Shown here piece by piece: positions 1 through 16,733 of a stretch of 64,000 nucleotides of DNA. This DNA is from Lachnospiraceae bacterium. GTDB taxonomy: Bacteria; Bacillota; Clostridia; Lachnospirales; Lachnospiraceae. The translations under genes were made by a program, and so were the position numbers. Every line of letters starts with the position of its first letter. Position 1 is the stretch's first letter. The DNA lies in contig JAILJP010000032.1 in assembly GCA_024694625.1 (NCBI GenBank), positions 16,717-80,716 of the forward strand, in the 5' to 3' direction. The notes beneath the pieces are model-generated. The model saw nothing but the letters and a program-made list of their open reading frames with translations, was not told where the DNA came from and made no database searches.

Positions 1-77
1 ATTACATGTATGCTAGGTACTGGCTATTTGTTTTGGTTTTATTAGTAAACTTTGAAAGGGGTAAAGACGTTGTAAAT

Positions 78-1163
78 ATGCCTATTTTAGATTTGCCGTA
101 TGAGTATGACTTATCATCTATTGAGAAAAATGGTTTATCAAATGCGGAAATCATTTTCATTAACAAGGTGTTTGGGATAGAAGCAAAGGGTATTTTGTCA
201 TCGAAGCGGCTTAAAAAGAAGGATTATTATACAACGACAGAGATTCTTCCTGCGTTGGCATATGCAATATATATTTGCAATACTCATGCTAAGGAAATGG
301 GAGCCTTAAATCTGTTTGACGCAAGAAAGGGGTATTCTTCAGAACGAATTTTAAATAAGTTAGGACCGGAGTTTGAGGGAATCAACTCTAGAACTTTAAA
401 TTATACATTAGCGTATTATTTTGAAAAAACTGGGGATCAAGCAACTCAATATAGAAAGGATGTGTACCGCTATTTATCAATATTGAGAGGACATATGATG
501 GAGACGCCGATGTCTATTTCAGCTGTAACTGCCTGTTACATTAAATCGTTGGCAGAAAATGACAATGTTGAAGAAATGGCGCGTGGAATAATAGAAAAAG
601 GACCTTTTGGGTGGATGTATATAGCATTGCTTAACGCAGCTGAGTGCTTACCGAATAATACGAACATGGAGGTACAGGCGGTAGTAAATGCACGAGATAT
701 TTTTCGCCCTTCGGATGCTGAACAGATTTCCAAGTTTTATTTAAACATTGATAAAGAACGCGAAGAGTGTCTTTTAGAATTGAAAAAATACAATAAAAGC
801 ATAATTCAAGATTTTATTGCAAACTTAGGGAAAATAGGAACGTTTCGTGACGAAAGCCGATTTCCTTGTTTGTTTGCAAATGCGTGTCCTCATAAAGAAA
901 AACAGTGCAGGTATTGCGAGTTTAGTGTTAAAACGTTGCTGGCAATGGAGACGTATGAAGACGAACTTAAAAAAATAGTAAAGCAGCTAAAGGAAACAGG
1001 CAACGATGTTGTTAGAAAGAAAAATCTTTATTTGTTTACTATTATTCTTAATGTTTTTAATGACTTTCAAAAGATGTATGGAAAAGATGTGCTAGAAGCC
1101 CTGATTGATGTAGATGAATTACATGATTTGGTTCGCTTAGTTGATTCACTTGAAAAGGAGTAA
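78..1163 (+). CDS. Hypothetical protein, first gene of a recombinase operon; C-terminal Cys cluster (CLFANACPHKEKQCRYC)
   Basis: ORF 6..1163; start at 78 (MPILDLPYEY) more plausible than 6; 2 nt before the next recombinase gene. Confidence 0.55.
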   Translation: MPILDLPYEYDLSSIEKNGLSNAEIIFINKVFGIEAKGILSSKRLKKKDYYTTTEILPALAYAIYICNTHAKEMGALNLFDARKGYSSERILNKLGPEFEGINSRTLNYTLAYYFEKTGDQATQYRKDVYRYLSILRGHMMETPMSISAVTACYIKSLAENDNVEEMARGIIEKGPFGWMYIALLNAAECLPNNTNMEVQAVVNARDIFRPSDAEQISKFYLNIDKEREECLLELKKYNKSIIQDFIANLGKIGTFRDESRFPCLFANACPHKEKQCRYCEFSVKTLLAMETYEDELKKIVKQLKETGNDVVRKKNLYLFTIILNVFNDFQKMYGKDVLEALIDVDELHDLVRLVDSLEKE

Positions 1164-1165
1164 GT

Positions 1166-2731
1166 ATGGTTGGAGCATTACGACAGGAAACTGTTATAGA
1201 GAACGGTAGAAAAACATCAGCAGTTCTTGAAAAAAATATCACAATCGATACGTATTCAGAATTTGAGTATTTGCAAAAGTTTAAGGAACTTAAACGAAAA
1301 GGCATTTTGGTTAATTGTGAGTTTGCTGATAATGTGTGGAATATCAAGGAAGAACTAAAAGATGTGGTACACCATCCAAGTTTTTTTGATGGCAATAATG
1401 TGCCTTTGAAGTATTATTCAATACTGTTGCTTGAGAATAATAGTTCTGCAAATGTTGCAAAGGCTGTGCGTTTTATTTCGCAGATCATCTTGGTCACAGA
1501 TGGGCTTACGGAGGATTGGGAGCTTAAGGATGGACAATATAATGTCACACCACATATGATTTCTCTGGTGCAGGGATACTTTGATTATGTTGGAATAGAA
1601 AAGAGAGTAGCAAGGCAGTATATAGAACCATTAAAGGAAATATGTGATTATTCAAGCCAATGCAGAAAACTTCCGATATTGGAAAGCTTGATTAAGTTTA
1701 ATTTGATAATTGAGGGATTTGAAAAGGAGATGACGAATAAAGATTTCAGATTCCTGCCAGTTGTATTGTGGTGGAAGCTGACGATGGTTATTCCTATGCG
1801 TCCTGTTGAGTTTTATACAATCAAACGAGAGTCAATATATACAAGCGATGGTAAGTATTATATCCGTGTTAACAGGTCGAAAAAAAGCGATCCGGATGAT
1901 GAAAAAAAACATGTGGTGCCTTTAATAAGCGAATTTGAAATTTCAAAGGAATTATATGATTTGTTCCTTCGATATATTGAGAAGTACATACCGGGAGAAG
2001 AAGATTATCTGTTTAATGTGAATACTATGGCTAGGACGAGCGTGAGAAATAAACGAGACTTTGTTGGGAGAAGTTTGTACGACTCTCTGTTAAATAGTTT
2101 TTTTGATGAAATAGTGATTCAAAGATTCGGATATACAGTTGTTGAAAAAGAAAAGAAGCAAACGCTCGAAGAGAATGAAATAGAGTTTATAAATTATGGA
2201 GATACAAGACACTTTGCATTTTTAAACTTGATTCTATCTGGATATAATCCGTACGATATTGCACAGCTTGGCGGTCATCGTAACTTAAGTGAGCAGATGA
2301 GCTATTATGGTGGAGCGAAGCCGTTTTGTAGCTCGTATGCATATGTTTTGGCAACTGGAATCGTTGATAAATTACCTAGGGACATCAGTTTTGGCCAACA
2401 GCGTATGATAGAACATAGAAAGAGTTTATTATTGGATAAAGCAGATGCGCGAAAGTTAAATAAGGGTTATTGCTTATCGAAGAATTTCCCTTTTGAGTGT
2501 GTTGGGATTGATTGTGCAAAGGGAAAATGTGAGTATTTCAGACACGATAATGATGAAGACATTGAGCGCGATATGGAGGAAGTTGAGAAAGATATAGAGA
2601 AAAACGTTAGTTTTTTGAAATCGATCGTATATACGGAACCAATGGACTCGATATCTCGTCAAGAAACGGTTGCAGATACGAATGAAAAAATAGTTCAATT
2701 GTCACGACTGATTCGGGAAAGAAGAGGTTAA
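1166..2731 (+). CDS. Tyrosine recombinase/integrase (Tn554 TnpB-like)
   Basis: Motifs MRPVEF, RVNRSKK, GDTRHFAFLNLILSGYNPYDIAQLGGHRNLSEQMSYYG match arm-R, K, RxxH/GGH and Y boxes; C-terminal Cys cluster. Confidence 0.85.
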   Translation: MVGALRQETVIENGRKTSAVLEKNITIDTYSEFEYLQKFKELKRKGILVNCEFADNVWNIKEELKDVVHHPSFFDGNNVPLKYYSILLLENNSSANVAKAVRFISQIILVTDGLTEDWELKDGQYNVTPHMISLVQGYFDYVGIEKRVARQYIEPLKEICDYSSQCRKLPILESLIKFNLIIEGFEKEMTNKDFRFLPVVLWWKLTMVIPMRPVEFYTIKRESIYTSDGKYYIRVNRSKKSDPDDEKKHVVPLISEFEISKELYDLFLRYIEKYIPGEEDYLFNVNTMARTSVRNKRDFVGRSLYDSLLNSFFDEIVIQRFGYTVVEKEKKQTLEENEIEFINYGDTRHFAFLNLILSGYNPYDIAQLGGHRNLSEQMSYYGGAKPFCSSYAYVLATGIVDKLPRDISFGQQRMIEHRKSLLLDKADARKLNKGYCLSKNFPFECVGIDCAKGKCEYFRHDNDEDIERDMEEVEKDIEKNVSFLKSIVYTEPMDSISRQETVADTNEKIVQLSRLIRERRG

Positions 2732-2735
2732 TAAT

Positions 2736-3290
2736 ATGGCGAGAAATTTTAAATACACAGAAGACCAAATAGTAGAGTTCGTAAAGAAGTATGTAAAAGA
2801 ACATATTGACGAAAAGTTAAAATTTGACACACTTTATGAGGCGTTGGGGATATCGCGCTCTGCGGCTTACAGGGAACCATATTATACGATTCTAAAAAAT
2901 GAAATTGCTAAATACAATTATGCTCCGGCAAGGATTGCTGCAAAGGTCAAAAAAATGTCGGCGCTGTCTGAAGTCATAGACAAATGTAATGATAACCCTA
3001 ACTTGTTGAAAAAAGAGCTAATAAGTATGGGTGAGCTACTTAAACAACAGGAGAATAATCATAGAGATTACGTTGAAGAGATTGAAAAGCGATTGGAAAA
3101 GCTGAAAGCCGAAAATGAATCTTTAAGTGATGATTTGAGAAGAAAGAACGATGAATTTAATATTTTGTTGGATAAGTATAATTATTACGTATCAGGCAAA
3201 GAATCAATGGCTAATTTGAAGGATAATTCTAAAAAAACAAAACGAACAACATTTGAAGACCAGTTTAGGGAGCTTTTTGGTGATGCGTGA
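2736..3290 (+). CDS. TnpC-like/DUF6262-type DNA-binding accessory protein with coiled coil
   Basis: N-terminal HTH-like segment (ALGISRSAAYREP) then coiled coil; directly after the tyrosine recombinase as in Tn554-type elements. Confidence 0.6.
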   Translation: MARNFKYTEDQIVEFVKKYVKEHIDEKLKFDTLYEALGISRSAAYREPYYTILKNEIAKYNYAPARIAAKVKKMSALSEVIDKCNDNPNLLKKELISMGELLKQQENNHRDYVEEIEKRLEKLKAENESLSDDLRRKNDEFNILLDKYNYYVSGKESMANLKDNSKKTKRTTFEDQFRELFGDA

Positions 3291-4440
3291 ATTAATATAT
3301 GCCGTGTTAGCGAATACATTAGATGATATTGAACCTTATGATGTAGTTCATCGGGAAAGAAACCAAATATATCTGCCGGAGCAGGATGTTATTATTTCTT
3401 TCTGCAACGACATTACAAAGAAGTACCCATCGGATAAAGCTGTTATAGTTCATTCTGAAGACGAAGCTCCAAATCTGACATATTTGAATTATTATCCGAA
3501 AGAGATTTCTTTTGAGGAAGCATGTAGAATAGTAAAGTCGATATTTGAAGAGTTTGGTTTAATGACTGAGGTGTGTACGGATTCTATTGTGCTACCAAAA
3601 GTGAAAGAACGATACAATGAAGCTGTTGATAAGATGGATAAACGCTATAGGGAAAGAATAATTGAGAAGTTAGTATCCGCTGATGATTGCTTTTATCCGC
3701 CAGAAGAAGATTTCCTGAAAAATTGGTTTGAAATGCAGCCTCGTTACTACTCAATCGAATACGATTATAATGGGCAAAAAGTAATTGTGGTAAATGATAC
3801 TGTATATGGTGGTTGGGGGTATTATTTTTCTGCTGCATCAAAATATTTGGCTATAACAGGAAAAAGTGAAATCACACAGCGGGATGTGTGGAGGGATTTA
3901 AAACTTGGTTTTTGGATAGCTGATCAAAGGAATGCTTTTCGCGGAGTTGGAGGCCATGCGTCTTCGGAGAGATTGCAATTGCTGAATACAATCAATTTTA
4001 AATTAAATGTGTTTGAGGATGCATTTGAACAGAACATGACGAGGCTAGCTGAATATAAAAGAGAAAACGGGCATTGTAATCCGGAAAAACGCGAGGTGTA
4101 TAGGGGGTGGAATATCGGGTATTTTTGCCAGAAAGCAAGAGTGGATTACAAAAAAGGTTCAATGGCGCAGGAGCGAGTGCAAAGATTTGATGCGATGGGC
4201 TTTGATTGGGATCCCTTGGAGACAGAGTGGAATCGTCGGCTGGAGCAATACAAGAGATATATTGCTGAAAATAACGGTAAAGCGTATATAGCCAGACGTA
4301 CAAAGTATGAAGGTGAAAATCTTGGCGCGTGGGTCGAAACACAGCGAAAATGGTATGCGGCAGGAAAGATGAGTGAAGATCGATATCATGCGTTAAAAAA
4401 GATTGCGCCGAGTTTTGAAACAAATCCGCAAGATTCGTAA
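3283..4440 (+). CDS. Helicase-associated (HA) repeat protein
   Basis: Two tandem HA-like units (WNIGYFCQKARVDYKKGSMAQERVQRFDAMGFDWDP; LGAWVETQRKWYAAGKMSEDRYHAL); start overlaps the TnpC-like stop by 8 bp. Confidence 0.65.
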   Translation: MRELIYAVLANTLDDIEPYDVVHRERNQIYLPEQDVIISFCNDITKKYPSDKAVIVHSEDEAPNLTYLNYYPKEISFEEACRIVKSIFEEFGLMTEVCTDSIVLPKVKERYNEAVDKMDKRYRERIIEKLVSADDCFYPPEEDFLKNWFEMQPRYYSIEYDYNGQKVIVVNDTVYGGWGYYFSAASKYLAITGKSEITQRDVWRDLKLGFWIADQRNAFRGVGGHASSERLQLLNTINFKLNVFEDAFEQNMTRLAEYKRENGHCNPEKREVYRGWNIGYFCQKARVDYKKGSMAQERVQRFDAMGFDWDPLETEWNRRLEQYKRYIAENNGKAYIARRTKYEGENLGAWVETQRKWYAAGKMSEDRYHALKKIAPSFETNPQDS

Positions 4441-4581
4441 CCTGTAGTTATAGATGAAGTCATAATGTGATATTATTCTATTGATGAATAGTGTGACAGA
4501 TTCTATGCAACAAACATAAAATCTTGGTTGCAAAAATAGATAATATAAGAAACTAGCTTGGCAATTAGAAGGGGGAGTCAA

Positions 4582-4884
4582 GTGAGCGTGCTAAATAAGA
4601 AACAGATGTCCGAAGAGGATATCAAGTTAAATTACATCACACCAGCGTTACAATCTAGATGGTCTGAACATATTACGATGGAGACAAAGGTTAAGCTTGC
4701 CAATGAAGATCGCAAGAAGAAAGTCTTTGATTACAATATGTTTGAGTGGACATATCCCGGCGGTCTTGCTACGAATGCCCATAGGAAGTATATAAACCGG
4801 ATGCAGGAAATGCGAGAGGATAACGAGTGTTTTAAGAAGGAAATGGAACAGGTTGAGAATAGTGAACAAGACGGGGAGCAATAA
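4582..4884 (+). CDS. Small protein whose N-terminus resembles type I restriction HsdR N-terminus (LNKKQMSEEDIKLNYITPAL); possible fragment
   Basis: GTG start after GGGGGAG SD; N-terminal similarity only, remainder unlike HsdR. Confidence 0.45.
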   Translation: MSVLNKKQMSEEDIKLNYITPALQSRWSEHITMETKVKLANEDRKKKVFDYNMFEWTYPGGLATNAHRKYINRMQEMREDNECFKKEMEQVENSEQDGEQ

Positions 4885-4885
4885 T

Positions 4886-6745
4886 ATGGGAGAAGTCGTA
4901 CGGGGTTCGAGATCAAAAAAAACGCATGAGCAATTCTTGAATGAGATAGGTATCATTAATCCCAATATTGAAATTATAGAGAAGTACAAGGGGTGTAAAG
5001 AGAAACTTGAAGTAAAGTGTCTAATATGTGGTAATGTTTGGCGTGCTGCACCTTCAAAACTACTTATAGGTAGAGGGTGCCCAAAATGCGGTAGAAAAAA
5101 AGCTGCAGAGGCAAGAAGAAATTCGTTTGACAAAGTGCAAAAGAAATTGCACGAGATTAATCCTAATATAGAAATAACAGGTGAATATGTTTCTGTAGAT
5201 AACCCCATCGATTGTAAATGTTTGAAATGTGGTTTTATCTGGAAACCAACATTATCAAATTTGTATGCAGGGAAGGGGTGTCCGAAATGTTCTGGAAGAT
5301 ATCAACGAACACACGAGGAATTTGTCAATGAGTTGCACGATATCAGCCCTAATATAGAAGTAATTAGTACCTTTATAAATACGTCAACAAAAGTGAGATG
5401 TCGTTGTTTAGAGTGTGGATATATTTGGGAAAGCGTTCCTAGTAGTTTGCTAAGTGGGACAGGATGTCGTAATTGCGCAGTAAATCGAAATACAGGGACT
5501 AATCGGGTACATGACGATGTTCGAGTTTTCATCTATTCACCGGAAACTTTTATTGATGAAATATATAAAGATAACAAGAATTCAACCATTACACTTCTGG
5601 ATAAATATGTTGATTCTACAACAAAAATAAAATGTAAATGCGAATTGTGCGGGTACGAATGGTTAGCAATGCCTTATGTTCTAAAGAAAGGGACAGGATG
5701 CCCGCAGTGTAATCAACGGAGAAAGACAGATGACTATTTTAGAAAACAGGTAAGGGATAATGGTTTTGAGATTGATATCTTGGGAGAGTATAAGGGCGCT
5801 CACTCAAAAATAAAATGTCGTTGTCAAAATTGTGGCTATATTTTTGAAGCTACAGCCCATAGCATTCTACAAGGGCACGGGTGTCCCGAATGTAGTCGTA
5901 AAAAGTTGGGAGATATTAAGAGAAAAACGCAAGACCAATTTGTCGACGAGTTAGCAAAAACACAACCCGATATATTAGTTACAGGTAAGTATAAAGGAAA
6001 TAATACTCCTGTAAAATGTAAATGCCTGAATTGTAAATATATATGGTCTCCTAGACCAGCAGATTTGCTTGCTGGAAAAGGCTGTCCAGAATGCAATGGG
6101 AGAAATGGTACATCTTTTACCGAACAACTGATTTCTCTTGCATTTGAGAATGCTCTTGGAGCAAATAAAGTTTTCAATAGATATAGAAATGCTATTGGTA
6201 TGGAATTAGATATATATATTCCGGATCTGAATTTGGCTATAGAACCAGGTTCTTGGTATTGGCATAAAGATAAGACTCAAAGAGATAATGAAAAAAAACG
6301 TTTATGTACTGATAAGGGGATACGGTTAATCACTATCTATGATTCTGTCGATTTAGATGCCGGTATTCAGGAGGGTGATGATTGTTATGTATATTATCAC
6401 TCCCTGTCTGAGTCAAAGTACTATCCTGAATTAAAATCCCTGATTGTTGATTTGTTAGAACAATACGACTTAAACTGTGAAAATCTTGAGACCAATTTTG
6501 ACGAAATGGTTATATCGGCAAAACGGCGTTCGAGACGGAGGGGAACAAAGAAATTTATAAAAGAAATGGAACTTGTAAACCCTGATATTGAGATTCTAGG
6601 GGAATTTCAAAGAGTTCACGAGAAAATAGAATGCAAATGTCGGAAATGTGGATATATTTGGGAAACACCTCCTAGTAGTTTGTTAAGTGGGTCAGGATGC
6701 CCTAAATGCAATGGAGGTTATAAAAAACACATCAGGAATTCATAG
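4886..6745 (+). pseudogene. Zinc-ribbon repeat protein with embedded Vsr/PD-(D/E)XK-like endonuclease domain (5' part, frameshifted)
   Basis: Seven CxxC-x(n)-CxxC units (~60 aa each) plus SFTEQLISLAFENALG...ELDIYIPDLNLAIEPGSWYWHKDK...KGIRLITIYD; frame breaks in A6 at 6722-6727 and two further ribbons continue in -1 frame. Confidence 0.75.
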
Positions 6746-7140
6746 AGCAAATATCGATTATCAATCCTAATATAGAAGTAATTGGTGAATATACAGGAGA
6801 TGCAAATAAGATTTCCTGTAAGTGTCGCATATGTGGTAATAAGTGGTCACCAAACGCTTCATCTTTAATACAGGGGAGCGGTTGTCCGAAGTGTGCTGCC
6901 AAAAAGCTTGCAAAGTTGTTTGCGAGAACACAAACAGAATTTATAGAAGAGTTACGTAATATTAACCCCACTATAGAAGTACTAGGTGAGTATAAAAATG
7001 CACGAACTAAGATTCTATGTAAATGTAAAGTTTGTGGGAACGAATGGCAACCCATTCCAGATGTTTTAATCAATAGGGGTGGAGGATGTCCTGTATGCGC
7101 AAGAAAAAAAGCATGGGAAAAACGTAAATCTAGTAATTAG
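6727..7140 (+). pseudogene. 3' continuation of the zinc-ribbon repeat protein (ribbons 8 and 9) in the shifted frame
   Basis: -1 frame from 6727 reads THQEFIEQISIINPNIEVIGEY...GCPKC and TQTEFIEELRNINPTIEVLGEY...GCPVC. Confidence 0.75.
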
Positions 7141-7148
7141 CATTTGGT

Positions 7149-7186
7149 GGAGATGAATCAAGAGAGATTCATCTCCGCTATTTTTA
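7149..7186 (+). terminator. Rho-independent terminator downstream of the zinc-ribbon gene
   Basis: Perfect 11-bp stem GGAGATGAATC-aagaga-GATTCATCTCC followed by GCTATTTTTA. Confidence 0.65.
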
Positions 7187-7763
7187 TGTACTTGTAAACA
7201 GATGCCCGGGAACAATCCATAATGCGGGACATCTCGGATATGTTTATGCTTCCGGCTTTCTACATCTGATAGTACTTCCAAAACTTGTCAGGGAGAGTAT
7301 CCTTTGTTGTTACGGGTCTCCCAATCTGTTTACCTTTGGTGGCAGCATTCTTCATACCGGACTTGACTCTTTGTGAAATAATGTTACGTTCCATTTCAGC
7401 AAATACACCCCACATCTTAACCATTCCTTCTGTCATCGGATCCATTTCGCCTTTGGAGCAGTCAACACGGAAGGACCCACCGATATCAAGGATTAGTCTT
7501 TTGTCTTTGATGGTTTGAAGAATCTCGCACAGATGCTTTGTGGAACGAGTAAGCCTTGATACTTCTGTGGTGGCTATGGTATCTCCCTCGAATATGATAT
7601 CCATAAGTTTCATCAGTTCGGCACGGTCATCCTTGGTACCGGATTCATATTCCCAATAGATGTATTTGTCATCGGTAACGCCAAGGGTATACAACTCTCG
7701 TTTCTGGCGGTCAATGTCCTGACGTTCTTCATTTGTTGAGCAACGGGCATATCCATAAATCAT
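7158..7763 (-). pseudogene. Serine recombinase (resolvase/invertase family), interrupted by in-frame TAG at 7260-7262
   Basis: MIYGYARCSTNEERQDIDRQ..., VSRLTRS, EMERNIISQR motifs; HTH (KAGSINISEMSRIMDCSRASVYKYIKI) continues in frame after the TAG to TGA at 7158. Confidence 0.8.
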
Positions 7764-7768
7764 ATAGA

Positions 7769-8185
7769 TTACTCCTTATTAACTAATTTCTTGCATAATT
7801 TTAATATGAGTTCTTGAGATTCTTTATCTAGTTCTTTATATATACGTAAATATTCTTCTTCAAGCGAATTATCTGGGATTGTGTTATTTACGAAATCCGT
7901 TTTGTTGATTACTCTAAGTTTCATCTTTTCATAATCGATAGGATTTCCGAAAACAGAATCTTCATAATCCCAAAGAACTTCACCTTTATCTATTAATCCT
8001 TCTATTTCTTTCCATTCTGAATCAAGAATAACTTCTGATACTTTAGCAATACCTTCTTTAACGTGGGACTCATACCACATCTCTTTATACTTCTTTTTTT
8101 CAATATTAGTTACAAAAAGAAATGAATAACCAGTTGATAGAATACAATCAGTTCGATCTAATAACTTTTGAATAGATTTTCGCAT
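7769..8185 (-). CDS. Hypothetical protein
   Basis: 138 aa ORF 5 bp upstream of the recombinase, same strand. Confidence 0.5.
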   Translation of the reverse strand: MRKSIQKLLDRTDCILSTGYSFLFVTNIEKKKYKEMWYESHVKEGIAKVSEVILDSEWKEIEGLIDKGEVLWDYEDSVFGNPIDYEKMKLRVINKTDFVNNTIPDNSLEEEYLRIYKELDKESQELILKLCKKLVNKE

Positions 8186-8490
8186 TTAAGTCTCCTTCTA
8201 ATATAGATTGATAATGTAATGTTTAAGAAAAGGTAGTCTGATTTTCTTTTACAAAAATCAGCCCTTTTCTTATATATTTTTGATGGATTTCAAGTGTATA
8301 TGAAACCATCTGTTTTTGTATACACTATAGTTTTTGCAAAAAATGCGCAATGAATATAGGTATACAAAATGGGCGCTGGTTTTTGTGCATATATGCATTT
8401 GAGTTGTATATGGAAGGAATAACATAGATTTAGTTTAAAATTGAAACCTTAAATCCTTGATAGTATAATACAGTTCAAAAGGTGGTTTAT

Positions 8491-9807
8491 ATGAAAAAGA
8501 AAACGAATTTTAGAAAATTTATATATGGCTTATTGGTAGCAACACTTGTCCTTTGTGCTTTGCCAATGGTTAATACTTCTGTAGAAGCTGCATCTAAACC
8601 GAAGATTACTTCATTTACAGAGTCAAATGTAAACACTGGTACAAAAATGAAGGTTACATTTAAGGCTTCTGGCACTAAATCTTATAAGGTATGGGTATCT
8701 ACAAAGAAATCTTCCGGTTTCAAGAAAATATCTTACAAAAAGAAAGACACTGGAAAGAATGAAACCTATACAATTAAGAAATGTGGTTCAGCAAAGATTA
8801 AAGAGAATAAGACCTATTATGTCAAAGTAACGATTTATTCTAAAAAGAATTACAAGGGAACAAAGGTTACAAAAACATATAAAGTGTATTCAGCTCCTAC
8901 AACCGCAAAGCTATCTGTATCCAAAACCACAACTTCTGGAGCTACTATTAGTTGGAAGAAAGTGTCCGGAGCTACAAAGTACCAGGTGAAATTAAATGGC
9001 AAGACCTATACTCAAAAAGGATTGTCTAAGGCATATACCAACTTAGGTGCTAATACCAACTATACGGTAATGGTTCGCTCCTACAAGCAGATTAAGGTGA
9101 ACGGGAAGACCGTTAAACTCTATTCAGTATGGAAAACTATTGATTTTGCAACTGCAAAACAGACTACAACGGGAAACTCAACAACAACTCCCGTTGTGAA
9201 GACAGATGTAAATACTACTTACGGAGCTTGGCAGAACATCAAGTCTACTGCAACAGTAAGACAGTCTGCAGAGAACGAGAAAAGAACAGAAGATACGGAT
9301 GTATATAATGGAGTAAATATTCAAGTGTGTGAAAACTGTGGCAGAATATTTTGCGGAAATCAAGCTAGTAGTACACCAAATCATTGTGACGTATGCCACC
9401 CAATCGCTTATGGATTTGGATGTTACAAAATCGGCACTCTAACCACAGAGACCACGCCAGTTTACAACGTAACTACAGAGGATATGAGTGAAGCATATCG
9501 AACTGTAACAACTGTCACATACTATTCTGATGGTACGAGCAAGACTTCTTCTACCACACAAAGATATGTAGATGTGTATGGTACTACACTTCGCACCACA
9601 AGCACTTTGGCAGATGAATCCGAGTGGGAAGTGAACTACACGTATCGGATCAATCAATATTATGCGGAGTTGTTTGATTATGAGAATGGAGAGCCTATTG
9701 ATACAGGCGGCGGATATGGGCTATTCAAAATGAATGGAGATTGGTATTTTGGAAATTTATCTGATTACACCAAGTTCCCTAGCAATGATAATGTAATTCT
9801 CGAATAG
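8491..9807 (+). CDS. Secreted protein with Fn3-like domain and C-terminal CxxC...CxxC module
   Basis: Signal peptide (KKKTNFRKFIYGLLVATLVLCALPMVNTSVEAA), SKTTTSGATISWKKVSGATKYQVKL Fn3-like, VCENCGRIFCGN...HCDVCHP. Confidence 0.7.
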   Translation: MKKKTNFRKFIYGLLVATLVLCALPMVNTSVEAASKPKITSFTESNVNTGTKMKVTFKASGTKSYKVWVSTKKSSGFKKISYKKKDTGKNETYTIKKCGSAKIKENKTYYVKVTIYSKKNYKGTKVTKTYKVYSAPTTAKLSVSKTTTSGATISWKKVSGATKYQVKLNGKTYTQKGLSKAYTNLGANTNYTVMVRSYKQIKVNGKTVKLYSVWKTIDFATAKQTTTGNSTTTPVVKTDVNTTYGAWQNIKSTATVRQSAENEKRTEDTDVYNGVNIQVCENCGRIFCGNQASSTPNHCDVCHPIAYGFGCYKIGTLTTETTPVYNVTTEDMSEAYRTVTTVTYYSDGTSKTSSTTQRYVDVYGTTLRTTSTLADESEWEVNYTYRINQYYAELFDYENGEPIDTGGGYGLFKMNGDWYFGNLSDYTKFPSNDNVILE

Positions 9808-9854
9808 GAGAGAATATTTGTTGCAATTATGTCGCATCGTGCTATAATGAACAT

Positions 9855-9944
9855 AGAAAAAGTGCTACCGATGACGGTTAGCCTAGATTTATAAGCAAAA
9901 AATGATCGCTCAGTTTTCTAGGAGGGCGGTCATTTTGCTTTTTT
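9855..9944 (+). ncRNA. Putative antitoxin small RNA of a type I TA-like locus
   Basis: TTGCAA(9821)-N16-TATAAT(9843) promoter; ends in hairpin AAATGATCGC...GCGGTCATTT + T run. Confidence 0.5.
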
Positions 9945-10016
9945 ACCTAACTTGTAACCTATGCTGAATGCACCGCATAAAAGCGTTGTTAAAGCACAAT
10001 ATTCTAAGATAGTCAA
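9930..10016 (-). CDS. Putative 28-aa membrane toxin peptide MTILEYCALTTLLCGAFSIGYKLGKKAK (TTG start)
   Basis: Hydrophobic core with basic tail; own promoter TTGATA-N17-TATAAT on minus strand (10164..10136); convergent with the small RNA. Confidence 0.45.
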   Translation of the reverse strand: MTILEYCALTTLLCGAFSIGYKLGKKAK

Positions 10017-10178
10017 TTCGCATCAGTCCTTTCATTATATTTCCCCTTTCAACGCCCTTTCATACGAGAAAGGGGATGAAAATTGATAGAAACAATAAAA
10101 GGCTAACCGCCACCGTTATAAGTAGCACCTTTATTATTATAACAAAGTAAAAATCATGTATCAATAAAATGAGCAAAG

Positions 10179-10207
10179 AAGAACACGTTTATGTGTTCTT
10201 TTTTTGT
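10179..10207 (+). terminator. Intrinsic terminator
   Basis: AAGAACAC-gtttat-GTGTTCTT + T run. Confidence 0.6.
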
Positions 10208-10308
10208 GTCCATTTTTAGTTGTAAAAATTGCAATATATTTTGCACTATTTTCAAAAAAATAAGGATTTCGGGTTTACAATAGGGGCAGAAAAAAGGAGG
10301 TAGAAACA

Positions 10309-10719
10309 ATGGAGCAACAGCAACCAGATCAGTATTACATACCAGACAATTATTCAGACGAACATCAATTCCGAGGGATACCTTATAGGAATATCATAGA
10401 AGCGTTAATAGTGGTTTATGTATTCTACAAATTGATACAAGCAACACCATTTGTATTATCCATACGCCTTACAGCAGTTCTAATTGTATGTGGTGGCTTG
10501 GGCGTGTTCTTTTTAATTGGAATTAAAGGAGAAAGCGTGACGCAATTCTTTTTATCATTTTTAAAGTATAGAGAGAATAAAAAGACATATCACCTTAGAC
10601 CAGTAGGATATAAAACAGCGAAAGAAAAGAAACGTGAGGATAAAAATGATAAGTTTAAAAAAGCAATCAAAGGAAGTAAAGAAAAAGTCAAAGAAATCAC
10701 AGGCATCTTCAGAACTTAA
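10309..10719 (+). CDS. PrgI-like conjugation membrane protein
   Basis: QYYIPDNYSDEHQFRGIPYRNIIEA + two TM segments, basic tail; resembles PrgI family upstream of VirB4 in ICEs. Confidence 0.6.
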   Translation: MEQQQPDQYYIPDNYSDEHQFRGIPYRNIIEALIVVYVFYKLIQATPFVLSIRLTAVLIVCGGLGVFFLIGIKGESVTQFFLSFLKYRENKKTYHLRPVGYKTAKEKKREDKNDKFKKAIKGSKEKVKEITGIFRT

Positions 10720-10777
10720 TAACCCAAAAAATGAAGTGGATGAGTTCTTTGGTGATAAGGTGATGTATTATATTTAG
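10646..10777 (+). pseudogene. N-terminal remnant of a VirB4-like ATPase gene
   Basis: Overlapping 43-codon ORF (MISLKKQSKEVKKKSKKSQASS...) in the position VirB4 normally occupies after PrgI; truncated. Confidence 0.4.
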
Positions 10778-10881
10778 TTGTTAGAATGTTATTTACCTAC
10801 ATTGATTTATTAATTATAGTAAACTTCTTTCATTTTGAGACAATTCATTTTGAGATTATTGGTTCCTCTATATTTATAATT

Positions 10882-11406
10882 ATGAAGTACAGTACGATTA
10901 AATACAGAGATATTGCAAACGGAGAGGGCGTGAGAAACGTCCTTTTTGTTTCCGGTTGCACCCATCATTGCAAAGGTTGCTTTCAACCTCAGACATGGGA
11001 TTTTGATTATGGCGATGAATGGGAGGAAAACATTCAGGAGGAATTTCTGAATCAATGTGAACCTTCCTTTATTGAGGGAGTGACCTTCCTGGGAGGGGAA
11101 CCCATGGAGGAAGTAAACCAAAAAGGATTGTTGCCTTTGGCAAAAGCCTTTAAGCAAAGGTTCCCGGAAAAAACCATTTGGTGTTTTACCGGATATACCT
11201 TGGAGGATGATTTGTTGAAGGAAGATGGAAAAGCACATTTTTCCACAACGGAGGAGTTTTTATCCCTGATTGATGTTTTAGTGGACGGGGAATTTGTATT
11301 GGAGAAAAAAGATATTACCCTTCAGTTTCGAGGAAGCAGTAATCAGCGTATCCTGGAAAGAAATGATAAGGGAGAATGGGTTACCTGGAGTAAAAAAATG
11401 AGATAA
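10882..11406 (+). CDS. nrdG: Anaerobic ribonucleoside-triphosphate reductase activating protein
   Basis: MKYSTIKYRDIANGEGVRNVLFVSGCTHHCKGCFQPQTWDF; radical SAM CxxxCxxC. Confidence 0.93.
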   Translation: MKYSTIKYRDIANGEGVRNVLFVSGCTHHCKGCFQPQTWDFDYGDEWEENIQEEFLNQCEPSFIEGVTFLGGEPMEEVNQKGLLPLAKAFKQRFPEKTIWCFTGYTLEDDLLKEDGKAHFSTTEEFLSLIDVLVDGEFVLEKKDITLQFRGSSNQRILERNDKGEWVTWSKKMR

Positions 11407-11441
11407 ATGGGGGCTGTCCGACATTCAATTCGGAGCCTCTA

Positions 11442-11484
11442 TTTTTGTGCCCTTTTTGTGCCTCTTTTGTAACCGTTTTGTGTC
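11442..11484. promoter_or_regulatory. Four direct repeats TTTTGTG(CC) at exact 11-bp spacing
   Basis: GT dinucleotides at 11447, 11458, 11469, 11480; lies upstream of 11542 ORF and near an OmpR-type regulator. Confidence 0.5.
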
Positions 11485-11541
11485 TTTGGGGATGCTAGAA
11501 TACACACAACAATGTAGGTGTGTATCAAGAGAGGAAGTTTT

Positions 11542-11751
11542 ATGAAACAGCTGAAATATTTTATAAAATTAAGTGTTCCATTTTTCGCAATTGGTATGAC
11601 AGTGGTTGCGGGGGTTGTTCTTTTGTTTATGATGCCTGTTATGGCGCCTTCGATTGTTGCATCCGGGGCAACCGGTGTACCGTCTTACTACATTGTAGCA
11701 ATGGGCGGGATAACTGCATTGCCTTTGATTTATGCGTTGAAGCGAAGATAA
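11542..11751 (+). CDS. Small membrane protein
   Basis: 69 aa, two hydrophobic segments, after GAGAGGAAG SD. Confidence 0.55.
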   Translation: MKQLKYFIKLSVPFFAIGMTVVAGVVLLFMMPVMAPSIVASGATGVPSYYIVAMGGITALPLIYALKRR

Positions 11752-11925
11752 TAGCTACGGGAATTTTATCAATATAGCCGCTGGGAGTCTCATTGGAAGG
11801 AGGCTCCCTTTTGTTTTGCCGTTTTGCAATTTGAAGGCAATGGTTTAAAATATAGTCATGATTTAAGGTAACTTTTAGGTTAGGGGTATAAGATATTAGT
11901 TACTATACAAGAAAAGAGGGATATT

Positions 11926-12603
11926 ATGAGACTGTTATTGGCCGAAGATGAAAAAGAAATGTCAAACGCAATTGTAGCGGTGTTAAAACATAATCATTAT
12001 TCTGTTGATGCGGTATTTGATGGAGAAGAGGCCCTGGACTATCTTGATACAGAATTATATGATGCAGCAATTTTGGATATTATGATGCCGAAAAAAGACG
12101 GGATTTCCGTTTTAAAGGAAATTCGACAAAAAGGTTTGGACATACCTGTGATTTTACTGACGGCGAAGTCGGAAGTGGATGACCGCGTAGAAGGTTTGGA
12201 TGCAGGGGCGGATGATTATCTTACCAAGCCTTTTGCAATGAAGGAGCTTTTGGCACGAATCCGTTCCATTACCAGACGTCAGGGAGAAGTGAAGGACAAT
12301 ATCCTCACATTTTCCAATTTGAAACTGGACAGGGCTACATTTTTAATGTCTACGGAACAGGATTCCGTACGATTGGCAAACAAGGAATTTCAAATGCTGG
12401 AAATGCTTTTGCAAAATCCCGGCCAGATTATTTCCACCGAACAGTTTATGGATAAAATCTGGGGATATGATTCGGAAACAGAGTTAAATGTGGTTTGGGT
12501 ATATGTATCTTACCTGCGAAAGAAACTTTCCAAAATCGGTGCAAAGGTAAATATTAAAGCAGCCCGTGGTGTAGGTTATTTGGTGGAGACGGAAGATGAT
12601 TAA
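11926..12603 (+). CDS. OmpR/PhoB-family response regulator
   Basis: MRLLLAEDEKEMSNAI...DIMMPKKDG...LTAKSEVDDRVEGLDAGADDYLTKPF + winged helix. Confidence 0.95.
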   Translation: MRLLLAEDEKEMSNAIVAVLKHNHYSVDAVFDGEEALDYLDTELYDAAILDIMMPKKDGISVLKEIRQKGLDIPVILLTAKSEVDDRVEGLDAGADDYLTKPFAMKELLARIRSITRRQGEVKDNILTFSNLKLDRATFLMSTEQDSVRLANKEFQMLEMLLQNPGQIISTEQFMDKIWGYDSETELNVVWVYVSYLRKKLSKIGAKVNIKAARGVGYLVETEDD

Positions 12604-13849
12604 AAGCCTTCGGAAAAAATTTATAGCGATTACCATGGTTTCGGTTTTTGTTGTGCTTACACTTTTAATCGGATCCATCGATATATTAAATTATTATAAT
12701 GTGCGACAAAACATTTCCTTGGAAATGTCTCTTTTGAAAACCTATGGGGGAGATTTGACCTCCATGAAAAAAGAAAGAGGAATGCGTCCGGAAATGGGAG
12801 GAGAGCAGGGAAAAATCAATTCTGAGACTCCTTTTTCCATTCGATATTTTACGGTGACGTTGAACTCTGACGGTACGGTAGATGCGGTAAACACAAATGA
12901 TATCGCTGCGGTTTCTGAGATGGAGGCGCGCTCCATTGCTAAGCTTTTGCAAAGCAGTGGGAAGACCAAGGGTTTTTATGACGATTATGCCTATGAAACC
13001 ATTACGGTGGAAACTTCTTCGGGAGAAGAGGGAGAGATGTACATTTTCATGAATTGCAGAGAAGAGCTGTCTTCCTTTAGAAGTTTTCGGAATATCAGTT
13101 TGGGGATCAGCTTTATCGGTTTGGTTTTGGTGTTTGTATTGGTGGTGCTTCTATCCAAAATTGCCACAAAACCTGTAGCGGAAAGTTATGAAAAACAAAA
13201 GCATTTTATTACGGATGCTTCTCATGAAATAAAGACACCGCTGGCCATTATTGAAGCGGATACAGAAGTGCTGGAAATGACGGAAGGGGATAACGAGTGG
13301 CTGAAAAGTATTCGAAACCAAATCAGTCGTTTGTCCTCTCTGACGGAGAAGCTGGTATTTTTGTCACGAATGGATGAAGAAAACACGAAGCTGGAAATGC
13401 GGGAGTTTTCTCTATCCCAAACCGTCTCTGAAGTGACGGAATCCTTCCTCCCCGTGGCAAAGGCAAAGGGGAAAGAATTGACAATGGAAATTGAACAAAA
13501 CGTTTTACTTCACGGAAATGAGGGGACGATTTCCCAATGCATTTCTCTTTTGGTGGATAACGCCATGAAGTATTCTGATGAAGTTGGAAAAATATCCGTA
13601 TCCTTGAAGACGGTGGCAAAGAATAAAAAACAAATCAGTGTCTATAATACGGTGGATGAAATTGCCGTTGGAAATCATGATGTGCTATTTGAACGGTTTT
13701 ATCGTTCGGATGCTTCTAGAAGCACCAAAACCGGAGGGCATGGAATCGGTCTTTCTGTGGTAAAGGCGATTGTGAATGCTCACAAAGGAAAAGTGACGGC
13801 AGAAAGTAAAGACGGAACCTCCATTGAATTTCGAATGATTTTGCCTTAA
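12596..13849 (+). CDS. Sensor histidine kinase
   Basis: TM segments, HFITDASHEIKTPLAII H-box, GHGIGLSVVKAI G-box. Confidence 0.95.
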   Translation: MIKSLRKKFIAITMVSVFVVLTLLIGSIDILNYYNVRQNISLEMSLLKTYGGDLTSMKKERGMRPEMGGEQGKINSETPFSIRYFTVTLNSDGTVDAVNTNDIAAVSEMEARSIAKLLQSSGKTKGFYDDYAYETITVETSSGEEGEMYIFMNCREELSSFRSFRNISLGISFIGLVLVFVLVVLLSKIATKPVAESYEKQKHFITDASHEIKTPLAIIEADTEVLEMTEGDNEWLKSIRNQISRLSSLTEKLVFLSRMDEENTKLEMREFSLSQTVSEVTESFLPVAKAKGKELTMEIEQNVLLHGNEGTISQCISLLVDNAMKYSDEVGKISVSLKTVAKNKKQISVYNTVDEIAVGNHDVLFERFYRSDASRSTKTGGHGIGLSVVKAIVNAHKGKVTAESKDGTSIEFRMILP

Positions 13850-13924
13850 AAGAAGACGCTCAAAGTTGCGATGTGTGCTAGAATAGATATGTAAGAAGTA
13901 TTTTTTGCATAGGAGGATGAGGAT

Positions 13925-14407
13925 ATGACATATGCAGAATTGGTAAAACAGGTGAAGAAAAATATCAAGGTTTCCGACAAGACGCTGGCAAAGAATCACT
14001 TCGCTGTGGAGTTTGATATCCAGGGAGAAGGAGAGGGCGCATTTTATGTGGAGTTCTTTGACGGTAAAGTGGATGTGGAACCCTACGAATACTATGATTA
14101 CGATATTCGTATTCGTACCGATGCTGCTACCGCCTTGGAATTAACCGGCGGTAAATTGGATTTTGAGAAAGCTCTTTTGACTGGTCGATTATCGGCAGAA
14201 GGAAAGGTAGACCGACTGACAAATTTGGGACGTGTGCTGAAAAAGGATTCCAAAAAGATTTCTAAAAAAGAAGATCCCAAGAAGATTTCAAAGAAGACGG
14301 AGCCGAAGAAAATTTCCAAAAAGCCTGCTGCTAAATCCATAGGGACAAAGAAAGCTACAAAGGCAATCGGAGCGAAAAAGACAGCCGGACACATTACGGC
14401 AAAATAG
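13925..14407 (+). CDS. SCP2-like domain protein with Lys/Ala-rich C-terminal tail
   Basis: SCP2-like body (KNHFAVEFDIQGEGEGAFYVEFFDGKVDVEP) then KKISKK repeats and AAKSIGTKKATKAIGAKK tail. Confidence 0.6.
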   Translation: MTYAELVKQVKKNIKVSDKTLAKNHFAVEFDIQGEGEGAFYVEFFDGKVDVEPYEYYDYDIRIRTDAATALELTGGKLDFEKALLTGRLSAEGKVDRLTNLGRVLKKDSKKISKKEDPKKISKKTEPKKISKKPAAKSIGTKKATKAIGAKKTAGHITAK

Positions 14408-16690: not shown

Positions 16691-16733
16691 TTCCAATCTT
16701 ATGTTCCAATAGATTAAAAAGAATATGATTTTT

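Follow-up and report, generated by a model that had tools for sequence, protein, structure and literature searches.

What might a protein read and cut when its nuclease domain sits inside a chain of zinc ribbons, and what would a bacterium or a mobile element gain by carrying it? The question is raised by a gene in a window of 64,000 nucleotides, which corresponds to positions 16717–80716 of contig 12 (C12) in the draft genome of a gut Lachnospiraceae bacterium (2.3 Mb, 123 contigs). Positions given below are those of the window unless C12 or a homologous locus is named.

Gene layout and reading frame

The open reading frame (ORF) lies on the forward strand at 4886–6745 and encodes 619 amino acids plus a stop; its start codon is one base past the stop of the upstream ORF. 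Six ribbons come first. Their cysteine quartets are at 5018–5089 (CLICG..GCPKC, first Cys at residue 45), 5219–5290 (residue 112), 5405–5476 (174), 5639–5710 (252), 5822–5893 (313) and 6023–6094 (380), and all six match DUF4379/CapR. An EDxHD/Vsr-like nuclease domain follows at 6104–6511 (residues 407–542), and then ribbon 7 at 6638–6709 (first Cys at residue 585), the last in the ORF's own frame. At a run of six adenines (A6, 6722–6727) the reading frame shifts by -1. Ribbon 8 (6823–6894, first Cys at nt 6823; DUF4379/CapR) and ribbon 9 (7024–7098, first Cys at nt 7024) are encoded in this second frame, which ends at 7139, also on the forward strand.

Each ribbon and nuclease block described in the first-pass annotation was found in its place. 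Its description of a nine-ribbon protein holds for the number of units; as ribbons 8 and 9 lie in the -1 frame beyond the A6 tract, that count crosses the frame break, and the protein as sequenced has seven ribbons, reaching nine only when both frames are joined. Programmed -1 frameshifting was considered and rejected, since the codon phase at the A6 run does not fit the canonical X_XXY_YYZ slippery heptamer. The likelier cause is thus either a mutation that shifted the frame or, the assembly being a draft, a homopolymer error. If the break is real, the window copy may be truncated after ribbon seven.

Ribbons and their variable loops

In Pfam, the ribbons of the ORF match DUF4379 (PF14311, E = 1.8e-36) and CapR (PF21817, E = 7e-28), and the out-of-frame piece with ribbons 8 and 9 matches CapR at 6.9e-15. 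Scores were 124.6 bits against a gathering cut-off of 24.5 (six stretches) and 97 against 24.2, so that by profile similarity the ribbons are treble-clef DUF4379/CapR units. Both the ribbon and the nuclease matches are far above chance by their Pfam and PHROG E-values, which come from different tools and are not comparable with one another. In a model of the full ORF, small domains line up one after another, each predicted well (mean pLDDT 82), but their packing is unreliable (pTM 0.41).

We compared individual ribbons among thirteen orthologues that share a fixed layout of two ribbons, nuclease, one ribbon and an altered last unit, in which His residues replace the second CxxC. Units at the same position are 50–62% identical between these proteins, whereas units inside one protein are 34% identical. 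Shannon analysis of the thirteen located the position-specific columns, numbered from the first Cys, at -10 to -5 and at +9 to +24. Both loop stretches differ between ribbon positions and are conserved within each position (z up to 22, a contrast to which kinship among the thirteen sequences contributes), and the Tyr/Cys/Gly/Trp scaffold around them is invariant. This is the pattern to be expected if every unit touched its own part of a single fixed site.

Predicted fold and relatives of the nuclease domain

AlphaFold2, run on an alignment of twenty-seven sequences from the window and the fetched loci, predicted the nuclease fold with high confidence (pLDDT 91.3, pTM 0.87). Five residues, S4, E7, D36, E47 and H54, are invariant across forty-three nuclease relatives; all are kept in the window copy (E7 at 6122, D36 at 6209, E47 at 6242 and H54 at 6263), and they are probably the active-site residues. 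Where cousins carry IEYDGxxWH, the window protein has the variant IEPGSWYWH.

Foldseek searches of viral models returned a phage endonuclease, a treble-clef protein and several homing endonucleases, with E-values down to 1e-7; the match to the treble-clef protein, from a Listeria phage, has a TM score of 0.68 on the query. Against the PDB the nuclease model had no significant match (top hit BsoBI, E 0.12). In a profile search of a phage library, phrog_559 covered ribbons and nuclease together (4.5e-112), and phrog_3339, annotated as a homing endonuclease, matched the nuclease alone (6.8e-14). With tblastn, phage Hef-type homing endonucleases were found in 168 records. By all three approaches the domain is homologous to phage EDxHD/Vsr homing enzymes, in keeping with the Vsr/PD-(D/E)XK-like fold first proposed for it. 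The suggested DUF559 affinity was not borne out: no Pfam family, DUF559 included, matched the nuclease block with the E threshold relaxed to 10, and the EDxHD/Vsr homing-type outgroup is the better home. The label 'HNH endonuclease' attached to phrog_559 should not be propagated, because the predicted fold is not HNH.

A similar pairing of parts has been described in phage group II introns, where three to five CapR-like domains are followed by an EDxHD/Vsr-like nuclease (NAR 2025, gkaf761; PMC12350094). The repeated domains in that study, of about sixty amino acids and related to CapR, DUF4379 and DUF723, are predicted to bind DNA, and its authors recognise a large, previously unrecognised outgroup of EDxHD/Vsr homing enzymes with thousands of unannotated relatives (PMC12350094). 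The window protein shares the repeated CapR-like domains and the EDxHD/Vsr-related nuclease. It differs in plan, its nuclease being internal with ribbons on both sides, whereas the intron enzymes have N-terminal CapR-like domains and a C-terminal nuclease; it differs also in setting, as the intron enzymes lie within phage introns and the window subfamily consists of bacterial genes outside introns. PHROG 559 and PHROG 3339 are likewise phage families, unlike the bacterial window gene.

I-Bth0305I (PDB 3r3p), the founding EDxHD homing endonuclease, resembles the window protein in its Vsr-like fold, in an I-E...W segment and in being a long multi-domain reader of DNA. Sequence similarity between the two is marginal (E 0.53), however, and I-Bth0305I has no ribbon array and lacks the IEPGSWYWH form of the motif. 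The Vsr mismatch endonuclease is alike in broad fold, and a phage 'DNA mismatch endonuclease' was among the Foldseek matches (E 3.6e-3), but Vsr has no ribbon arrays and the window gene adjoins no dcm-type methylase. By analogy only, zinc modules in series with a nuclease domain recall engineered zinc-finger nucleases; the window protein is a natural one, with treble-clef ribbons instead of C2H2 fingers and with its nuclease in the centre.

The enzyme class is therefore known but hardly studied, and the window protein is a variant of it, with its nuclease inside the array and its gene outside introns. What is new is that ribbon arrays enclose the nuclease in a subfamily of bacterial proteins that spans several phyla and is under purifying selection. 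New too are the two loops per ribbon that vary by position and are conserved between orthologues, and the carriage of the gene as mobile cargo.

Members of the subfamily

A genome scan identified twenty-four members of the same subfamily, sharing the motif GTSFMEQ...IGMELDIYIP...AIEPGxWxxHK...RD. Their hosts are Clostridia, Bacilli, Tenericutes, Saccharibacteria, Bifidobacterium and Olsenella, mostly as ruminant-gut metagenome-assembled genomes (MAGs), which also make up most of the genomes behind the survey. A first scan of viral contigs with the whole protein as query gave no match, and another viral-contig scan added one member. The thirteen orthologues of fixed layout belong to this subfamily. 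Whole-gene dN/dS was 0.09–0.17 in eight pairs of relatives, and the subfamily is under purifying selection.

Relatives also occur on plasmids and phage-plasmids of Lactobacillales and Bacillales (L005–L012). In most of them the nuclease, of the IEYDGxQHF type, is C-terminal and comes after the ribbons, and one is situated between terminase and portal genes.

The island in the window genome

Two relatives of the same genus (G001 and G004) lack the island, with nrdG directly after nrdD. In the window genome 13.8 kb separate these genes, which bounds the island at C12:13744 and about C12:27585 (window ~10869), and the genes downstream are collinear with those of the relatives. Its absence from the relatives makes the nuclease gene cargo of the island, and in this respect the earlier description of an accessory island with recombinases was accurate. 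The right flank is the native nrdG (10869–11406, forward strand), the gene that follows nrdD directly in the relatives. Two nrdG genes flank the island, at C12:13887–14420 and at window 10885–11406; the left one is 52% identical to the native nrdG of the relatives and stands beside nrdD as if brought by the island itself.

A tyrosine recombinase in a TnpB-like position (1166–2731, forward strand; Phage_integrase, E = 2.3e-4) follows a 385-aa protein with no Pfam family match (6–1163, forward). Another ORF resembling a tyrosine recombinase is found ahead of the window, at C12:14528–15724, and a 184-aa coiled-coil protein (2736–3290, forward) is TnpC-like in position, by arrangement only. The recombinases stand in series, one of them with a weak Phage_integrase match; a Tn554-like element would have adjacent tyrosine recombinases TnpA and TnpB plus TnpC, and the island may be of that kind. 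Two ORFs upstream of the nuclease, the gene at 3253–4440 (forward) encodes Helicase-associated (HA, PF03457) repeats, three in number, in a protein that lacks a nuclease. The 108-aa ORF that ends one base before the nuclease start (4558–4884, forward) had been taken for a type I R-like fragment; the likeness amounts to 36 residues of its N-terminus (PADLOC REase_I, E = 0.0023), and the remainder is unrecognised. Convergent with the nuclease is a fragment of a serine recombinase N-terminal (Resolvase) domain (7260–7763, reverse strand). By eye, the ORF at 10309–10719 resembles a PrgI-family protein of conjugative elements and is perhaps what remains of an ICE within this island. A search of window positions 1–14000 against Rfam gave no RNA anchor.

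Genomic context of homologues

The association with mobile DNA extends beyond the window, and homologues are not confined to housekeeping contexts; relatives of the class move between bacteria as single-gene passengers, often adjoining tRNA genes. A same-strand tRNA or tmRNA gene lay at most 1.5 kb upstream at 7 of the 18 loci with enough upstream sequence, with none on the opposite strand (binomial P ~2e-8 against a rough expectation). No Rfam match appeared when the non-tRNA loci were searched for RNA anchors. At three loci the nuclease is the only gene of an insert bounded by copies of a tRNA 3' end, of 35 bp (L080), 18 bp (L069) and 26 bp (L065). One extra tRNA-end copy lies upstream of the gene at L063, where the contig ends just downstream, and no clear tRNA-end repeat was found at L060, L061, L073 or L082.

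Empty counterparts exist for nuclease-bearing islands, both between nrdD and nrdG and at the tRNA site of L080. Three relatives of L080 (G434, G436 and G439) have a single repeat copy at that tRNA and no nuclease gene in the stretches read, and a fourth (G437) has a short empty cassette there. In a fifth relative, G438, a tRNA-Leu insert has its right end in common with L080 and lacks the nuclease; GGTCACAA is present in one copy in G438 and in one copy on either side of the nuclease gene in L080. A palindromic intergenic repeat at L080:7244–7426 (AATGATGTT...AACATCATT) is dispersed, with many copies in related Clostridia genomes. Arm-type repeats as nuclease sites were tried and rejected: repeated 9-mers were present at few loci only, and were different at each, one set in L080 belonging to the dispersed intergenic repeat.

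Two loci from different hosts have ends in common. L069 (Saccharibacteria, tRNA-Val) and L073 (Clostridia, tmRNA) are 73% identical over 373 bp from the CCA end and have the same right end, TAGTCCCACCA; mis-binning of one MAG contig is a possible cause. Another Saccharibacteria genome, G550, has an insert at the same tRNA-Val site with the same bounds, other genes inside and no nuclease. In the L069 genome itself (L132:1–4236), an operon of an NgoMIV-type restriction enzyme and a C5-methylase follows the same noncoding segment that precedes the nuclease, the two copies being 88% identical over 117 bp. The other cargo in G550 and this operon behind the same left segment make the nuclease one of several exchangeable cargoes. 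A NERD protein and a large serine recombinase are adjacent to the operon.

All-against-all comparison of neighbours identified no conserved partner gene. Only three loci, in Bacilli and Tenericutes, have two neighbours in common, one interpreted as an integrase and the other as a Mob relaxase. On the reverse strand of L044, an 8.5-kb insert between copies of a tRNA-Leu 3' end (from the tRNA-Leu end to 14697) contains two ribbon nucleases and two other ORFs (592 and 315 aa); no integrase was recognised in it.

Proposed function and alternatives

We give about even chances to the reading that the protein acts on its own as a site-specific DNA endonuclease, that mobile elements carry it as accessory cargo and that its most likely use is to cut rival DNA. 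The ribbon arrays on both sides of the EDxHD/Vsr-type nuclease would read DNA. Each ribbon has two variable loops, and its Cys/Gly/Trp/Tyr scaffold is fixed, so that the chain would read a long composite site, within which the central domain, presumably metal-dependent, would cut. The carrying element would in this way cut site-bearing DNA of rival elements or phages, and a host without the site would need no partner methylase. For the use of a homing enzyme in competition between phages there is a published precedent from phage PhiPA3 (PMC11620839). Several points count against this reading. The nearest relatives that have been characterised are homing enzymes, and selfish spread is enough to account for those; the neighbours show no defence enrichment, the PDB gave no significant match, the window copy has a frame break and the full model a low pTM.

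Selfish spread is a serious rival, if a somewhat unlikely one. A free-standing homing endonuclease would cut the allele that lacks it and be copied in by repair, with no benefit to the host. Its nearest relatives by tblastn, Foldseek and PHROG are phage homing endonucleases, similar enzymes lie inside phage group II introns (PMC12350094), and the S. carnosus relative sits between terminase and portal genes. The nuclease-free insert of G438, with its single GGTCACAA, fits such an allele; simple deletion accounts for it equally well. The thirteen orthologues, however, have matching ribbon signatures and hence probably one target, yet occupy different chromosomal places, and homologue genes are not within introns or split genes.

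A defence nuclease proper, acting as a restriction-like antiphage system of the host, seems unlikely, a little more so than homing. It would agree with the upstream segment held in common with a type II restriction-modification operon in the L069 genome, and with GmrSD-type genes beside L071 and an FRG-domain gene beside L061. The defence role raised as a possibility in the first-pass annotation was nevertheless not supported by the neighbourhoods, and a defence-island reading was rejected: in PADLOC, the seventy-seven nearest neighbours of homologues had 43 matched families as against 155 for seventy-seven genes more than 4 kb away. No PADLOC model fitted the window nuclease (best E 0.0015), and no sensor partner was found. 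Methylases were likewise absent from the genes near the window gene and from the list of families for homologues' immediate neighbours.

A further reading, which we consider improbable, makes the nuclease responsible for mobility: it would drive the self-insertion of a new kind of single-gene element at the 3' ends of tRNA and tmRNA genes. The repeat-bounded inserts of L080, L069 and L065, with the nuclease as only gene and no integrase, suggest as much, as do the strong same-strand tRNA association and the ends common to L069 and L073, with the left starting at CCA. The G550 insert, with other cargo inside the same bounds, weakens this reading. A large serine recombinase adjoins the tRNA at L082, and inspection by eye places a tyrosine integrase and a relaxase with the nuclease at L055, so that movement is explained by recombinases acting in cis or trans. 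Many homologues lie away from tRNAs, and the window copy is on a recombinase-bearing island.

Ribbons of other families can bind RNA and tRNA genes are frequent near homologues, but an RNA- or tRNA-cutting enzyme with RNA-binding ribbons is very improbable, given that DNA is the substrate of all nuclease relatives with known activity and that integration sites account for the tRNA proximity; of the modular DNA- or RNA-recognition nuclease first proposed, the modular array with its nuclease stands and RNA recognition finds no support.

Should the ribbons read DNA unit by unit, this large unannotated class would be nature's equivalent to engineered zinc-finger nucleases, possibly with a code that can be read, and would illustrate how gut bacteria's small mobile elements come to be armed with single-gene, methylase-free nucleases. 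The position-specific loops and the orthologues with 2+2 units (~410 aa) make such a code testable on a small protein.

Interchangeable repeats and tandem genes

Wider Lachnospiraceae cousins keep the plan of array, nuclease and array, with DUF4379 ribbons, HA repeats or another repeat. HA repeats in place of ribbons are new for this class; seven to twelve copies surround the same Vsr-like nuclease at L052:7442–10717 and, on the reverse strand, at L041:7455–9494, and they may read DNA in the way proposed for the ribbons. We tentatively extend the proposal to a family of re-targetable cutters of rival DNA, in which interchangeable arrays (DUF4379/CapR, HA and the third repeat) flank the nuclease and set its target unit by unit, in the ribbons by way of the two variable loops, although we think this rather doubtful. 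The HA-repeat nuclease of L052 begins beside a tRNA-Ala. The third repeat, unnamed and of about sixty amino acids (CLGEKRMMNCGxxATCIxYRNxxDIDVxFEDGTIV), flanks the same nuclease domain at L056:5631–7703.

Ribbon nucleases also occur in tandem, at L062:4926–8806, L082:7557–10915 and L044:6247–11346 (reverse strand). Both members at L044 are of the IEYDG type. The tandems at L062 and L082 each combine one nuclease of the EPGxW type with one of the IEYDG type, and the pair may form a unit of two enzymes.
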